Of a stretch of DNA of 35,487 nucleotides, positions 2,682 to 14,072 are shown piece after piece; positions within the stretch are counted from its first letter, which is position 1; the number at the start of each line of letters is the position of its first letter. The notes beneath the pieces were generated by a model, which was not told where the DNA came from, did no database searches, and saw only the letters and a program-made list of their open reading frames with translations. A program made the position numbers and the translations under genes. The DNA comes from Candidatus Thioglobus sp. (GTDB lineage Bacteria; Pseudomonadota; Gammaproteobacteria; PS1; Pseudothioglobaceae): contig VSKZ01000004.1 of assembly GCA_008364125.1 (NCBI GenBank), forward strand, positions 1-35,487, written 5' to 3'.

Positions 2682-3764
2682 TTATTCAATAGTGATGCTT
2701 GGAAATGCACTGAGAGCTTTGTCTTGCGCGGTTAATTTGGCTGCGACTTTTTTGGCAATTTCTTTGTAGATTTGTGCCACTTTGCCATCTGGGTCTTTGG
2801 CAACTGTTGGTGTGCCTTCGTCAACATCAGAGCGAATATCCATCTCTAAAGGCAAGGCTCCTAAGAAATTTACCTTGGCTTCTTTTGCCATTGACTGTCC
2901 GCCACCAGTGCCGAAAATTGCCTCTTCGTGCTGGCATTTTGAGCAAATGTGCAACGACATATTTTCGACGATGCCAAGAATTGGGATGTTGACTTTTTCA
3001 AACATTTTCAGACCTTTTTTAGCATCAAGCAAAGCAATATCCTGCGGCGTGGTTACTATTACAGCACCGCTGACTGGGATTTTTTGCGACAAAGTTAACT
3101 GCGTGTCGCCAGTGCCGGGCGGCAGGTCGATAATCATATAATCTATTCCGCGCCACAAAGTATCACGCAACATTTGCTCCAAAGCCTGCGTTACCATAGG
3201 GCCGCGCCAAATCATTGGATTTTCTTCATCGACCAAATAACCGATAGACATACTTTGCATTCCATGTCCCAAAATCGGTAGCAGCTTGCCTTCGCCAGTG
3301 GTTTCGGGCTTAAGCTTGGAAACTCCGAGCATTCTCGGCTGTGAAGGACCATAAATATCAGCATCTAAAATTGCCACTTTTGCACCTTCAGCTTGCAATG
3401 CCAGCGCTAAATTGACCGTTGTAGTTGACTTTCCAACGCCGCCTTTGCCTGAGGCAACTGCAATAATATTTTTAACTTCTGGCAAAACATCTACACCTTT
3501 TTGGGTGGAATATTTGGCAATTTTTGTGTCAATATTGACGCTGACATCATCAATTCCAGCATCTGATAATGCGCTGGTAATTGCCTCTGATAAAGGCTTA
3601 TGATAGCTTTGAGCCGGATAACTAAGAGAAATATTGACTATAACTTTGCCATCGTTAATTTCGATACTATCAACTTCGTTTGCACTAACAATATCTTGTT
3701 CGGTATAAATATCGGTAACGCCAGCAAGAATTTTTTCAATTTTGTCTTTAGTTAAATCTGTCAT
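2682..3764 (-). CDS. mrp: Mrp/ApbC family iron-sulfur cluster carrier ATPase
   Basis: P-loop ATPase of the Mrp/NBP35 family (also called ApbC) that binds a [4Fe-4S] cluster at a dimer interface and passes it to apo-proteins. With the ATG at 3764 it has 360 residues: an N-terminal MIP18/DUF59-like domain (about 1-85), then the deviant Walker A GKGGVGKS at 106-113, the DLPPGTGD switch region around 214, and the cluster-binding pair C274 and C277 (CSKC). Length and order are normal for the family. A longer form starting from TTG at 3776 adds four residues and seems less likely. It is divergent from metG with 80 bp between start codons, a common mrp-metG arrangement in gammaproteobacteria. The function fits the isc genes on the other side. 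Confidence 0.95.
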   Translation of the reverse strand: MTDLTKDKIEKILAGVTDIYTEQDIVSANEVDSIEINDGKVIVNISLSYPAQSYHKPLSEAITSALSDAGIDDVSVNIDTKIAKYSTQKGVDVLPEVKNIIAVASGKGGVGKSTTTVNLALALQAEGAKVAILDADIYGPSQPRMLGVSKLKPETTGEGKLLPILGHGMQSMSIGYLVDEENPMIWRGPMVTQALEQMLRDTLWRGIDYMIIDLPPGTGDTQLTLSQKIPVSGAVIVTTPQDIALLDAKKGLKMFEKVNIPILGIVENMSLHICSKCQHEEAIFGTGGGQSMAKEAKVNFLGALPLEMDIRSDVDEGTPTVAKDPDGKVAQIYKEIAKKVAAKLTAQDKALSAFPSITIE

Positions 3765-3844
3765 AGCCTTGTCCAATTAAGTAAAATAAGCTATTTTAGC
3801 GTATAACGATATAAGCTAAGCATAATATAACCTTAATATTTATA

Positions 3845-5842
3845 ATGACACCAAGAAAAATACTTGTTACAGCGGCGCTGCCTTATGCGAATGGAGAAAT
3901 TCACCTCGGGCATTTGCTGGAATATATTCAAACCGATATTTGGGTGCGTTTTCAAAAAATGATGGGCAATAAATGCCATTTTGTTTGCGCCGATGATGCC
4001 CATGGCACGCCGATTATGCTCAAAGCCGATGAACTTGGAATCAGCGCAGAAAAGCTAATTGCAGATGTAAGTAAGCGCCACCAGGAGGATTTTAAAGAGT
4101 TTTATATTGATTTTAGCCAATATCATTCAACTCATTCGCCAGAAAATAAGGCAATCTTAACAAGTATTTACAATAAATTAAATGCTGCCGGATTTATCAA
4201 AAAACGCATCATATCACAAGCATTTGACCCAGAAAAAAAAATGTTTTTGCCCGATAGATTTATCCAAGGAGATTGCCCAAAATGCGCTGCCAAAGAACAA
4301 TACGGCGATAATTGCGAGGTTTGCGGTGCGACTTATTCGCCGACTGAATTAAAAAATGCAAAATCAGCCATCTCTGGGGCAACTCCTATCACTAAAAATT
4401 CTGAGCACTATTTTTTTGATTTGCCACAATTTGAAACACAACTAAAAAAATGGACGCAATCTGGACATTTGCAAGATGAAATTAGCAATAAATTGGCAGA
4501 ATGGTTTGAGCAAGGCTTGCAACAGTGGGACATTTCTCGTGATATGCCGTATTTTGGTTTTCAAATACCGGGCGCGGCAGACAAATATTTTTATGTCTGG
4601 TTAGACGCGCCGATTGGCTATATGGCGAGCTTTAAAAAGCTTTGCGAGAGAGAAAATATTGATTTTGATGAGTATTTTTCTAAGGATACAAAAACTGAGT
4701 TGTATCATTTTATTGGCAAAGACATCGTTTATTTTCATGCCCTGTTTTGGCCAGCGATGTTGATGGGTGCTGATTATCGCACTCCGAATGCGATTTTTGC
4801 ACACGGATTTTTAACCGTTAACGGGCAAAAAATGAGCAAATCTCGCGGCACATTTATCCAAGCAAAAACCTATTTAGAGAGTTTAAATCCCGAATATTTG
4901 CGCTATTATTATGCTTACAAACTCAGCGACAAAATCAATGATATTGACCTTAATTTTGAAGATTTTAAACAAAGAGTCAACTCTGATTTAGTCGGCAAAG
5001 TAGTAAATATTGCCTCTCGCAGCGCTGGTTTTATTGTCAAAAAATTTGATAAAACACTGTCTGCGTATGCGATTGAAGGCGATTTGTATAATCAGTTTGT
5101 TGCTAAAAGCGAGGTCATTGCCAAGCATTATGAGGCGCGTCAATACAGCCGAGCGATGCGCGAAATTATGCAGCTTGCCGACCAGGCAAATCAATATATT
5201 GATGAGCAAAAGCCTTGGCAACTAATTAAGCAAGATGGTAACGAGGCAAAAGTGCATGATGTGGCTTCGCTGGCAATTAATTTATTTCGAGTGTTAATGA
5301 CTTACTTGAAGCCAGTTTTGCCGGAAATGGCAAAGCAAGTCGAGCAATTTTTGCAGGTGGATTTAAACTGGCAGGACTTAAAACATCCGCTCACTAAACA
5401 CAAAATTAACAAATTTAAGCCGCTGATGTTGCGCATCGAAGATGAGCAAATCGAGCAAGTAATAAGCGCTTCAAAAAGCAGCATACAGCCAAACGAAAAC
5501 ACAAAAGAGGATGATAATATGATTCAAATTGACGACTTTACTAAGATTGATTTACGCGTTGCTAAAATTGTTAAAGCACAGGCGGTGGACGGCGCAGACA
5601 AATTGTTGCAGCTGACTCTTGACATTGGCGAGCCGGAAAATCGCAATGTATTTGCTGGCATCAAATCGCACTACAAACCAGAAGATTTAGAAGGCCAGCT
5701 GACGGTTATGGTCGCCAATCTTGCCCCCAGAAAAATGCAATTTGGCATCTCAGAAGGTATGGTTCTCGCCGCTGGTGATGGTAAATCCTTGCACATTTTA
5801 GCCCCCGATTCTGGCGCAAAAGCCGGAATGAAAATCAGCTAA
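3845..5842 (+). CDS. metG: Methionyl-tRNA synthetase
   Basis: Class I aminoacyl-tRNA synthetase charging initiator and elongator tRNA-Met in the cytosol. The 665-residue protein has the HIGH-type motif HLGH at 20-23, a zinc knuckle with C144, C147, C157 and C160, and KMSKS at 329-333. After the anticodon-binding helical domain, a linker around 550 leads into a C-terminal tRNA-binding dimerisation domain of the Trbp111/EMAP type ([15 protein letters not shown]), as in the E. coli enzyme (677). The ATG at 3845 gives the usual [17 protein letters not shown] start. No SD is visible; a CATAAT box at 3821-3826 lies so close upstream that the mRNA may have a very short leader. tRNA-Ser follows 34 nt after the stop. 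Confidence 0.97.
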
Positions 5843-11014: not shown

Positions 11015-11245
11015 ATGAAAAAGTTAGTGATATTATTCGGGTTATTGATAAGTTTTAGTGCGTTTGCAGATGAGCGAGATGGCGTTGCCGTGCTTGGCGA
11101 CAATCCAACTGAGGCGCAAATGCAAACAGTTCGAGATGGCGGAAAAGACCGCTGTGAAGATATTGATGATGATAATAAGCGTGAGGTTTGCGTGGTTGAT
11201 TATTACGCGCAACACAACTTAGAGGAAGAGCCAAGTTGCGATTAA
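11015..11245 (+). CDS. Small exported acidic protein with three cysteines
   Basis: A 76-residue product with a clear Sec signal peptide (MKKLVILFGLLISFSAFA, probable cut after A18) and a short, acidic mature part with three cysteines (C47, C59, C75). I do not recognise the family. An AGGAG sits 6 nt before the ATG. An 84-nt gap separates it from rnhA, so it probably has its own promoter; it opens the group of five exported proteins on this strand up to 14072. The odd number of cysteines would allow one disulfide with one free thiol, or pairing with another protein; this is speculation. Confidence 0.8.
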   Translation: MKKLVILFGLLISFSAFADERDGVAVLGDNPTEAQMQTVRDGGKDRCEDIDDDNKREVCVVDYYAQHNLEEEPSCD

Positions 11246-11254
11246 CAGAATTTT

Positions 11255-11304
11255 TAGCTATGAAAATTAGCTATAAATAACCGGCTCGAAAGGGCTATTT
11301 TTTA
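11255..11304 (+). other. Hairpin-forming spacer between the small exported protein and the first rhodanese gene
   Basis: The gap holds a repeated palindrome TAGCTA (11255-11260 and 11268-11273), which can pair with itself, followed by an imperfect hairpin AATAACC/GGGCTATT (11276-11282 with 11292-11299) ending in a T-run. This could be a weak terminator or attenuator ahead of the rhodanese genes. The stem has a mismatch, so this is tentative. Confidence 0.3.
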
Positions 11305-11321: not shown

Positions 11322-11963
11322 ATGAAGTTTAAAACATTAGTAATAAGCGCTGCATCAGTAGCGTTATTGGCGTCAACGGCAGCAGTAGCAAAGCCAGTTG
11401 GTATCGTCAAAGGCGTTATGAATATTGCGGGAATTTCACGCAATCAAAATAACAAAAACACAATCCACCCAGCTTTTGCATTTACATCACGCAAATGCCC
11501 ACCGTTTTGTATTCAGCCAACACATCCGTTTGCCCCAGCAGAAGTTGAGACAATCAGTGAGCTTGATATAATTCACGCAGCACGCGATATTGCTAATGGT
11601 GATAAAACTAAGCTATTGATGGACAACAGAACTCCGGTTTGGACAACTGCCAAAAAAGGCGGAACCATTCCTCATTCTGTTAATATCCCGTTTAACACTA
11701 TCAACAGCAAGGCAGTTACTAAAGATCCAGATGCGGTTATGGAAATCATAACCTCTAAGTTTGGCGTAAAAGAGCAAGACGGCATCTTTGATTTTAGTAA
11801 GGCAAAAACTCTGTATATGTTTTGTAATGGCGCATGGTGTGGACAATCACCTGCTGGCATCAAAGCGCTATTGTCTTTAGGTTATCCTGAGCACAAGCTT
11901 AAATACTACCGCGGTGGTATGAACGCTTGGCATCAGTTTGGCTTGACTACAATAAACAAATAA
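11322..11963 (+). CDS. Exported rhodanese-like protein (soluble paralogue)
   Basis: A 213-residue protein with a Sec signal peptide (cut probably after AVA-23), so predicted periplasmic. The mature N-terminus carries a CPPFC motif (C59, C63) in a Pro-rich segment. The rhodanese domain follows (about 75-213), with the DNRTPVW substrate-loop segment near 101, the candidate active-site C168 in MFCNGAWCGQSP, a second cysteine C173 in the same loop, and the YYRGGMNAW motif near 195-203. Rhodanese domains move sulfane sulfur or act as binding modules; the substrate here is unknown. A strong SD (AGAGGAGA) precedes the ATG. It is the upstream member of a tandem pair with the gene at 11991. Confidence 0.85.
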   Translation: MKFKTLVISAASVALLASTAAVAKPVGIVKGVMNIAGISRNQNNKNTIHPAFAFTSRKCPPFCIQPTHPFAPAEVETISELDIIHAARDIANGDKTKLLMDNRTPVWTTAKKGGTIPHSVNIPFNTINSKAVTKDPDAVMEIITSKFGVKEQDGIFDFSKAKTLYMFCNGAWCGQSPAGIKALLSLGYPEHKLKYYRGGMNAWHQFGLTTINK

Positions 11964-12656
11964 CTATTTTTAAATTATTAGGAGACTATTATGAAAATTA
12001 AATTACTATTTATTGCACTAAGTGCATTGATTTTAACGGCTTGTAGTGGCGGCAGTGGCAGTGTTAAAAGTCATCCGGGCAGCAAGCCGGTTGGCATCAC
12101 TAAAACTGCTATGGAAATTGCAGGTATTTCACGCAATCAAAATAACAAAAACAAAATCCACCCAGCTTTTGCATTTACATCACGCAAATGCCCACCGTTT
12201 TGTATCCAGCCAACACATCCGTTTGCCCCAGCAAAAGTTGAGACAATCAGTGAGCTTGATATAATTCACGCAGCACGCGATATTGCTAATGGTGATAAAA
12301 CTAAGCTATTGATGGACAACAGAACTCCGGTTTGGACAACTGCCAAAAAAGGCGGAACCATTCCTCATTCTGTTAATATCCCGTTTAACACTATCAACAG
12401 CAAGGCAATTGCTAAAGATCCAGATGCGGTTATGGGAATCATAACCTCTAAGTTTGGCGTAACTGAGCAAGACGGCATTTTAAACTTTAACAATGCTAAA
12501 ACCTTGTTTATGTTCTGTAATGGCGCATGGTGTGGACAATCACCTGCTGGCATCAAAGCTTTGTTGAAATTGGGTTATCCTGAAAGCAAGTTGAAATACT
12601 ACCGCGGTGGTATGAACGCTTGGCATCGCTTTGGTTTGACCACAGTGAACAGGTAA
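11433..12656 (+). repeat. Tandem duplication of the rhodanese coding region (unit 693 bp)
   Basis: Positions 11433-11963 align without any gap to 12126-12656, at a constant offset of 693 bp. Within this, 11542-11714 and 12235-12407 read as 173 identical bases, including all synonymous positions. Differences are few upstream of that block and become frequent after about 11766. The sequences before each copy (signal peptides) are unrelated. This indicates a recent duplication, or gene conversion acting on the middle of the gene. Confidence 0.93.
11991..12656 (+). CDS. Rhodanese-like lipoprotein (membrane-anchored paralogue)
   Basis: A 221-residue paralogue of the preceding gene with a different sorting signal: MKIKLLFIALSALILTAC has a lipobox (LTAC, lipidated C18) followed by a Ser/Gly linker. 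Position +2 is Ser, so the outer membrane is the likely destination if the Lol rule applies. The mature part keeps CPPFC, the DNRTPVW segment, the two-cysteine loop CNGAWCGQSP and YYRGGMNAW. An AGGAG precedes the ATG and the gap to the first copy is 27 nt, so the two are probably cotranscribed. One paralogue is thus soluble and one membrane-tethered, with nearly the same domain. Confidence 0.85.
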   Translation: MKIKLLFIALSALILTACSGGSGSVKSHPGSKPVGITKTAMEIAGISRNQNNKNKIHPAFAFTSRKCPPFCIQPTHPFAPAKVETISELDIIHAARDIANGDKTKLLMDNRTPVWTTAKKGGTIPHSVNIPFNTINSKAIAKDPDAVMGIITSKFGVTEQDGILNFNNAKTLFMFCNGAWCGQSPAGIKALLKLGYPESKLKYYRGGMNAWHRFGLTTVNR

Positions 12657-12661
12657 TTATA

Positions 12662-12687
12662 AAAACCAAATGTTAATTATTGGTTTT
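12662..12687 (+). other. Inverted repeat after the rhodanese lipoprotein gene
   Basis: AAAACCAA at 12662-12669 and TTGGTTTT at 12680-12687 form a perfect 8-bp stem with a 10-nt loop. The first possible ATG of the Sel1 gene (12670) lies inside the loop. It may act as the first of two tandem terminator-like hairpins, or hide that start. Confidence 0.6.
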
Positions 12688-13209
12688 AAAAGAAGGGCGC
12701 TATTGGCGTCCTTTTTTTTGATTTTGATAATGGCGCAGTCAGTCGCTTTTGCTATTGGCAAGGCTGATTTGTGGTATCGGACTGGCTTTGATTATTCACA
12801 AAAAGGCAATAATGACAAGGCTTTTAGTTATATGTTGCGCGCTGCTGATAGCGGGCATACGGCGGCACAAAATAATATTGGGCTGAGTTATTTGCACGGT
12901 CTGGGCGTGGAAAAAGACGAAAACAAGGCATTTATTTGGTTTGAAAAAGCTGCTAAGAAAGGCTTGAAATACGCTCAAAATGAGCTGGGAATGCTATATC
13001 AGCGCCAAGGAAATGATATCAAGGCGCAGCGCTGGTGGTCAATTGCGGCAAATGCTGACGATGAATATGCACAGTTTAATTTGGCATCGTTGTTTTTACA
13101 ACAAAAGAAGATTAAAAAGGCGTATTATTGGTTCAAGCAAGCCAATGAAAACCAACATCCGCAGGCACAAATGGCACTTAATGAGTTGAAAAAAATGGAG
13201 GTAGAATGA
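12670..13209 (+). CDS. Exported Sel1-repeat protein
   Basis: The 179-residue frame has a basic, hydrophobic N-terminus that reads as a signal peptide ending AFA near residue 28, then Sel1-like helical repeats (motifs such as AAQNNIGLSYLHGLGVEKDENKA, then AQNELGMLYQRQGNDIKA) to the end. Such repeats mediate protein-protein contacts; the partner is unknown. The start is uncertain: the ATG at 12670 lies in a hairpin loop with no good SD, and codons 9-17 overlap a strong terminator-like hairpin with a T-run. A TTG at 12703 has GAAGGG 5 nt upstream, but would lose the basic end of the signal. The stop overlaps the next start (ATGA), so the two are probably coupled. Confidence 0.75.
   Translation: MLIIGFKRRALLASFFLILIMAQSVAFAIGKADLWYRTGFDYSQKGNNDKAFSYMLRAADSGHTAAQNNIGLSYLHGLGVEKDENKAFIWFEKAAKKGLKYAQNELGMLYQRQGNDIKAQRWWSIAANADDEYAQFNLASLFLQQKKIKKAYYWFKQANENQHPQAQMALNELKKMEVE
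12694..12719 (+). terminator. Rho-independent terminator-like hairpin inside the start of the Sel1 gene
   Basis: AGGGCGC (12694-12700), loop TATTG, GCGTCCT (12706-12712) gives a 7-bp stem with one G-U pair, followed directly by eight T (12712-12719). This would end the rhodanese transcript, but it lies within the longest reading frame of the downstream Sel1 gene. Either the Sel1 gene starts further down, or it is expressed by read-through. Confidence 0.7.
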
Positions 13210-14072
13210 GCAAAATATTAGCATTGAGTTTGTTATTAGTTCAAAGCAGTTATGCTTTTGTGCCGAGTATGCCAGCGCTTCCGGGGCTGCCGATGTTTGG
13301 CGATTTTAATCCGAATAAATTGCGCGCTGAATTTAATCAGTTTGTAGGGGTTGAGCCAGATTTTTCCAGAGAAAAGCGCTTAGTTTCTGAGATTGAAGAT
13401 GCAGTTTTAGATGGTGATGTAGAATATTTACCGCTTAAAAACTCTAAAGAAGTTTTTTCTATTTTTATGGAAAGTGAGGCGGGCAAAGTTAAAGGTGGAG
13501 TTATCATCCTCCATAATCGCGGGCAACACGCAAATTGGGCAGACGCGATAAAGCCGCTACGCACTGGGCTGGCAGTAAAAGGCTGGGACACGCTATCAGT
13601 GCAAATGCCGGTTCTGGACAAGCATGCTAAGTATTATGATTATGTGCCGATTTTTCCGTATTCACACCAGCGCATCGATGCAGCTATTGATTTTTATCAG
13701 CAAAAAGGCATTGATAATGTGGTGATTATTGCCCACGGCTGTGGCGTGCATATGGCGATGAGTTATATTGATAAATATGGTGATGGCAAGCTTAAAGCCT
13801 TTGTCGGTATCGGTATGGGGGCAACGGATTATCGGCAAAAATTGATAAATGATTATCCGCTATATAAAATGAAAGTGCCGATTTTGGATATTTATGCGCA
13901 GCAAGATTTTCACGGAGTGCTACAAATGGCAGGGCATAGAAAAATGTTGATGGAGATAGGGGGCAACAAAAAATCTGAGCAAATTGTGGTTAAAGATGCG
14001 GGGCATTATTACCAAAACGAAGCAGCAGAGCGGCTGGTGGATAAGGTTTCTGGCTGGTTAAATGTTTTGTAG
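13206..14072 (+). CDS. DUF3530 family exported protein (alpha/beta-hydrolase-like)
   Basis: A 288-residue protein with a signal peptide (MSKILALSLLLVQSSYA) and the alpha/beta-hydrolase-like pattern of DUF3530: a strand then ILHNRGQHANWADAIKPLRTGLAVKGWDTLSVQMPVL, and near the C-terminus KDAGHYYQ with a candidate His. The position of the nucleophile elbow reads AHGCGVHMA (HGCG at 177-180), so the usual Ser of GxSxG is replaced, possibly by C179. DUF3530 proteins have no settled function and many lack a normal catalytic Ser. The start overlaps the Sel1 stop (ATGA). The 3' end overlaps the convergent DUF455 gene by 15 nt. Confidence 0.8.
   Translation: MSKILALSLLLVQSSYAFVPSMPALPGLPMFGDFNPNKLRAEFNQFVGVEPDFSREKRLVSEIEDAVLDGDVEYLPLKNSKEVFSIFMESEAGKVKGGVIILHNRGQHANWADAIKPLRTGLAVKGWDTLSVQMPVLDKHAKYYDYVPIFPYSHQRIDAAIDFYQQKGIDNVVIIAHGCGVHMAMSYIDKYGDGKLKAFVGIGMGATDYRQKLINDYPLYKMKVPILDIYAQQDFHGVLQMAGHRKMLMEIGGNKKSEQIVVKDAGHYYQNEAAERLVDKVSGWLNVL

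Follow-up and report, generated by a model that had tools for sequence, protein, structure and literature searches.

Recurrent partial gene conversion between the cores of two tandem rhodanese genes, rho1 and rho2, is well supported by codon alignments from across the family Thioglobaceae. The window (the whole stretch of 35,487 nucleotides analysed here) carries both genes on the forward strand. Our overall account, in which an old tandem with repeated core conversion and copy-specific heads encodes periplasmic SoxL-type sulfurtransferases, is probably correct. rho1 (copy 1; 11322..11963) encodes an exported rhodanese of 213 residues with a plain type I signal peptide and the motifs CPPFC and CNGAWC. 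rho2 (copy 2; 11991..12656) encodes an exported rhodanese of 221 residues with the same core, an LTAC lipobox and a Ser/Gly linker, and is a predicted lipoprotein. The 27 nt spacer between them (11964..11990, forward strand) is without the hairpin found here in most other genera. These are the only homologues in the window genome (G000; 1.18 Mb in 161 contigs), which has Candidatus Thioglobus and Bathymodiolus symbiont genomes among its named relatives. The conserved neighbours, also on the forward strand, are a small exported protein of 76 residues with no Pfam family just 5' of rho1 (11015..11245), an exported Sel1-repeat protein 3' of rho2 (sel1; 12670..13209) and, further downstream, a DUF3530 protein (13206..14072).

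From 11391 onward the two copies align gap-free at an offset of 693 bases. The longest run without differences covers 173 bases (forward strand, 11542..11714 in copy 1 and 12235..12407 in copy 2). The homogenised stretch extends beyond this block; near-identity in copy 1 spans 11433..11786 (forward strand, codons ISRNQ to KEQDGI), which gives approximate limits for the converted region. The original prediction, made from the window alone, described two rhodanese reading frames at a fixed offset, the 173-base block, and a plain signal peptide in one copy against a lipobox in the other; all of this is borne out. Its position 11433 holds as the onset of near-identity but not as the start of the first gene, which lies at 11322. 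Over the 56 whole codons of the block (approximately 37 synonymous sites) the copies in the window have no synonymous difference, whereas the same codons show 19-27 synonymous codon differences from any other genome compared. Along the gene, synonymous divergence between the two copies starts at 0.71 in the 5' part, falls to 0 in the middle and rises again, to 0.3-0.6 over the last third and 0.50 in the tail. Among polymorphic core codons the copies stay identical for at most 52 in a row (permutation p = 0.0005); restricted to conserved-residue codons, the same test gives p = 0.24, because nearly the whole core is identical. A strong sigma-70-like match (11/12, with TG before the -10 element) lies inside the identical block of both copies (11545-11572 and 12238-12265); we judge these promoter-like sites within the core to be coincidental.

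For divergence, run tests and trees, 22 complete rho1/rho2 pairs were codon-aligned. Following synonymous divergence along the gene with both copies aligned, the check proposed with the original prediction, favours conversion over a recent copy: heads are orthologous by copy, cores group mainly by genome and the tracts of zero divergence differ between genomes. The 5' tree (first 64 alignment codons) places all 22 copy 1 genes on one side (support 99/97), with one copy-label change. The core tree (codons 76-230) has 15 copy-label changes, equal to the shuffled mean, and groups sequences mostly by genome; the AU test rejects a core tree in which the copy 1 genes are constrained to be monophyletic (p = 0.001). 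Seven own-copy pairs are starred in the core tree (G000, G014, G017, G020, G025, G028 and G091). Re-duplication within lineages, rather than conversion, could also make cores group by genome, as they do in several lineages, and tandem arrays easily gain or lose copies (several genomes have a single one). It predicts, however, heads and tails as similar as the core, whereas the copy 1 heads all fall into a single clade apart from the copy 2 heads, the spacers are copy-specific and so, in most genera, are the tails. We regard re-duplication as very unlikely, and the 5' tree contradicts a recent duplication as the source of the block in the window.

Conversion is also what the divergence values point to. 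Within genomes, synonymous divergence across the 22 pairs is 0.37-0.72 in the 5' part and mostly lower in the core (0.05-0.54), whereas between genomes the core differs by 0.5-0.7 for either copy. Windows of zero divergence occur in G000, G001, G003, G014, G018, G020, G025, G026, G027, G028, G032, G091 and G099, at positions that differ by genome; since either copy has diverged between genomes, they are not due to constraint. Selection at the nucleotide level, for example on a promoter or RNA element within the gene, or else strong purifying selection might in principle keep the copies alike without recombination: a promoter-like TTGAGA-16-TATAAT lies within the block in both copies and the core is the catalytic domain. 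The 19-27 synonymous differences from every genome compared show instead that no sequence is held fixed, and the zero-divergence tracts shift from genome to genome; both contradict constraint of this kind, which we consider highly improbable. An assembly artefact, one of two outcomes that the original prediction named as fatal to its reading, is equally hard to credit, for although the window genome is in 161 contigs and assemblers can merge repeats, both copies lie in one contig with distinct, continuous flanks on both sides, the tandem recurs in the single-contig genomes G001, G006, G011 and G031, and G001 has zero-divergence windows of its own.

Nine pairs have a longest identical run exceeding that of permutations at p <= 0.001 (G000, G001, G003, G006, G014, G018, G027, G036 and G091); these run-length tests weaken when restricted to conserved-residue codons. 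About seven pairs (G017, G024, G031, G036, G092, G096 and G097) are without a recent tract, and five lineages among these (G024, G031, G092, G096 and G097) have cores that remain distinct by copy; conversion has therefore recurred without being constant. The other refuting outcome named with the original prediction, with each copy conserved separately and no sharing of tracts, is not seen overall, these pairs apart. Tails and spacers are copy-specific in most genera. One genome, G098, has a single gene that joins a copy 1 head to a copy 2 tail, which matches expectation for recombination between the copies. Among single-copy and degraded cases, this hybrid tail and the broken gene of G086 alone are informative on recombination; the downstream sequence of single-copy genomes is weak as proof, since it belongs to sel1 and would be retained by any clean deletion. 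Purifying selection acts on both copies, with pN of 0.01-0.15 and pS of 0.05-0.54 in the core.

Some further features of individual copies were seen. Copy 1 heads (11322-11400 in the window, and relatives) vary little at synonymous sites from genome to genome (0.32-0.42, compared with 0.5-0.7 for the core), a hint that selection acts on the start of the mRNA. In G004 (L040, sense ~3914-5403) copy 1 is frameshifted and an extra stretch separates the copies, giving a 195-nt spacer; a motif similar to this stretch (CTTTGCATAAATA) lies 3' of the single copy of G007.

Gene order and phylogeny indicate that the tandem is old, extends throughout the Thioglobaceae in conserved synteny and did not arise by a recent duplication. 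Homologues are present in 44 of the 83 searchable Thioglobaceae genomes, and every genus with intact genes has the tandem, g2 excepted. The conserved order is leuC / asnB-like - rnhA - 76-residue exported protein - rho1 - rho2 - Sel1 - DUF3530 / DUF455. Genus g3 has no homologues at all among the searchable family genomes. Genus g2 keeps dsrA, while its rho genes are for the most part gone or disrupted (stop codons or fragments in G012, G029, G086 and G088), and no rho genes are found in G002 (97% complete); the genes are therefore dispensable. Outside the family, homologues occur in 67 of approximately 365 sampled members of the class, and none of these 67 carriers has a close tandem.

The heads that distinguish the copies are export signals. 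Copy 1 heads are plain signal peptides, of the ordinary AXA type in the window, where the peptide ends AVA-KPVG. The window's copy 2 carries LTAC as its lipobox, with Cys18 as the lipobox cysteine, and then SGGSGS, with Ser at position +2. The LTAC lipobox is found at the end of the signal peptide in copy 2 of all two-copy members of the window genus (G000, G001, G003, G004, G006 and G011) and in none of the other Thioglobaceae genera examined, where copy 2 of two-copy genomes has a plain signal peptide. Among 31 class-wide relatives one has a lipobox (L087). Under the Lol +2 rule, a lipoprotein with Ser at +2 is sorted to the outer membrane, and copy 2 of the window genus is, on this motif, probably an outer-membrane lipoprotein. 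That the same domain exists in soluble and lipid-anchored forms, as originally proposed, therefore stands as a prediction for the window genome but does not generalise; with the lipobox confined to the window genus, dual localisation cannot explain the family-wide pair. In most genera other than that of the window, copy 2 continues after its signal peptide with a conserved HNWNN(G/T)SS-like stretch.

The locus is punctuated by hairpins, which from their terminator-like form are putative terminators or attenuators; Rfam returns no known RNA family above threshold at the locus. A weak hairpin with a 5-bp stem and a T-run (11283..11302, forward strand) directly precedes the rho1 ribosome-binding site, and similar elements occur in most relatives. 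In 19 of 23 two-copy genomes a terminator-like hairpin, mostly with a T-run, immediately precedes the ribosome-binding site of rho2 (spacers of L041 and L043-L060; z -2.5 to -5.5). G000, G001, G003 and G011, with spacers of 21-30 nt, have no such hairpin. The third hairpin, also with a T-run, lies at 12688..12718 (forward strand) inside the signal-peptide coding region of sel1, where it overlaps the sequence encoding KKGxLIASLFF, so that one stretch is both protein code and RNA hairpin. It is present after rho2 in nearly all genomes, is found at the same place in 32 relatives (alignment A2) and covaries in the 33 genomes, with pairing in 98.3% of cells and 26 two-sided changes, where shuffling gives a mean of 4.0.

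Both proteins match the PF00581 rhodanese domain (34.9 and 32.9 bits, cut-off 22.2). Four cysteines are invariant in an alignment of 49 sequences: Cys59 and Cys63 of CPPFC, and Cys168 and Cys173 of CNGAWC (copy 1 numbering). The AlphaFold model contains a confident rhodanese domain, with pLDDT mostly near 90 from residue 71 onward, and the N-terminal extension that carries CPPFC is poorly defined. The top match by both fold and sequence profile is BH2092, a Bacillus halodurans rhodanese (PDB 3o3w, 3nhv), which has, like the rho proteins, a CxxxxC active loop (CWGPAC). It is approximately 20% identical to them, has no CPPFC extension in the aligned part, and its entry names no function. A phmmer search of one sequence against the PDB gave no match. 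NCBIfam gave no family above cut-off and returned no SoxL model for these proteins; membership of PQQ_CXXCW (TIGR03865) is rejected, at 15.1 bits against a curated cut-off of 128.05. In many Thioglobaceae an Rnf-Nqr subunit gene and prmC flank a third rhodanese paralogue, which is more distant (L117:3333-3956, L118:3765-4388, L120:963-1586, L121:3377-4021 and L122:3101-3772). It is without the CPPFC motif, TTRGKIQPM replacing TSRPCPPFCIQP, and the window genome does not have it. G031 has a second, divergent pair of adjacent homologues (L119:2826-3473 and 3587-4291), approximately 40% identical to the window protein.

The likely role of the pair, inferred from gene context, is that of a periplasmic SoxL-type sulfurtransferase that removes sulfane sulfur from SoxYZ, in two differently exported versions. 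In Allochromatium vinosum, soxL follows soxXAK and its product is proposed to act instead of SoxCD, accepting the sulfane sulfur and regenerating SoxY (PMC3368242). Relatives of the rho proteins, approximately 50% identical to those of the window, occupy comparable positions. In G038 the homologue lies within soxX-soxY-soxZ-soxA-SAXB(soxK)-rho-soxB; in G299, soxX-soxA is followed by a homologue fused to the SoxAX-binding protein (SoxK) in one open reading frame (L110:7459-8427); in G443, soxB directly adjoins the homologue. Among 369 genomes of the class, by counts that ignore phylogeny, soxB occurs in 60 of the 70 with the family and 91 of the 299 without it, and dsrA in 51 of 70 and 66 of 299. 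soxC has no match in any of the 83 Thioglobaceae, whereas the same model matches 53 genomes of the class. Seventeen of the 70 family-bearing genomes have soxC, with no depletion of the family where it is present. SoxL as a general, class-wide substitute for SoxCD is rejected on a tally made by hand, with soxC in 12 of 60 soxB genomes that have the family and 19 of 91 that do not. In no Thioglobaceae genome examined are sox genes found beside the pair, which is flanked by rnhA and sel1; the soxB of the window genome is on a different contig. The SoxL role therefore rests on the distant relatives of the pair. Of the traits of SoxL, periplasmic export is predicted for both copies by inspection and pattern, from the signal peptide of copy 1 and the lipobox signal of copy 2, and a gene directly after soxXAK or within a sox operon is seen in the relatives G038 and G299; the window pair itself is not in a sox cluster. 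We infer that the pair is SoxL-like by context and do not claim outright membership.

A general periplasmic rhodanese that handles thiosulfate or polysulfide in the manner of PspE, and is not a Sox component, is a possible but less favoured alternative, and would leave the conversion history unchanged. The pair is located away from sox genes, 10 of the 70 family-bearing genomes are without soxB (6 without both soxB and dsrA), and E. coli PspE uses thiosulfate to generate sulfane sulfur (PMC10215317); the relatives embedded in, or fused to, sox genes and the strong co-occurrence with soxB argue the other way. For these rhodaneses in SUP05/Thioglobus, the literature holds general mentions only.

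On the SoxL-type reading, an ancestor of the dsr-bearing Thioglobaceae would have had one exported SoxL-type rhodanese gene, tandemly duplicated at the rnhA-sel1 locus. The duplicates retained different export heads, and short-tract gene conversion between the neighbouring copies has since homogenised their cores many times over. The recombination was presumably of the RecA type; the pattern is shown by the sequence and the enzyme is our assumption. The heads, and usually the last dozen codons, stay copy-specific. In the window genus, copy 2 became a predicted lipoprotein, and most members also lost the hairpin between the genes. Each copy would carry sulfane sulfur as a persulfide on Cys168, and Cys173 of the CxxxxC loop and the CPPFC pair would probably relay or resolve it. 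The source of the sulfur would be SoxYZ or thiosulfate, in a Sox system without SoxCD. Conversion would hold both cores fitted to one shared partner, and head and transcript attenuation would set the location and amount of each protein. A SoxL pair tuned in dose and place along these lines, with SoxYZ as the shared partner and the hairpins acting together with the heads, is a tentative proposal.

In this family of marine sulfur oxidisers and animal symbionts, the pair serves as a clean natural experiment: recombination evens out the enzyme core but leaves the export heads distinct. Ordinary phylogenies and automated ortholog calls will mislead for the rho genes, because the core follows the genome and the head follows the copy. 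The Thioglobaceae, which are without soxC, gain a candidate SoxL-type sulfur acceptor that is otherwise annotated just as a rhodanese.

SoxL of A. vinosum (Alvin_2171) is likewise an exported single-domain rhodanese in a host without soxC, and relatives of the rho family occupy the same slot after soxA-soxK. The window genes differ from it in being two tandem copies at an unrelated locus, with homogenised cores and, in the window genus, a copy 2 that is a predicted lipoprotein. Long-lasting concerted evolution in prokaryotes has been described for 26 genes, including amoCAB, tkt and mtrA (PMC6053082; rhodanese or sulfur genes are not mentioned in its main text). As in those cases, which are recurrent and found across genera, the rho paralogues are closer within a genome than are orthologues in the core. 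The flanking parts of the rho genes keep copy identity, which speaks against a fresh duplication, and their difference-free synonymous tracts are longer than chance, though not in every pair. Unlike the genes described earlier, the rho genes are a tandem rhodanese pair in which the core alone is homogenised and the heads are copy-specific. Partial conversion between primate SIGLEC11 and SIGLEC16 keeps the shared ectodomain alike and the other part gives a different function (PMC5701461); those are mammalian receptors, whereas here the protein is a bacterial enzyme and the unconverted part is the export head.
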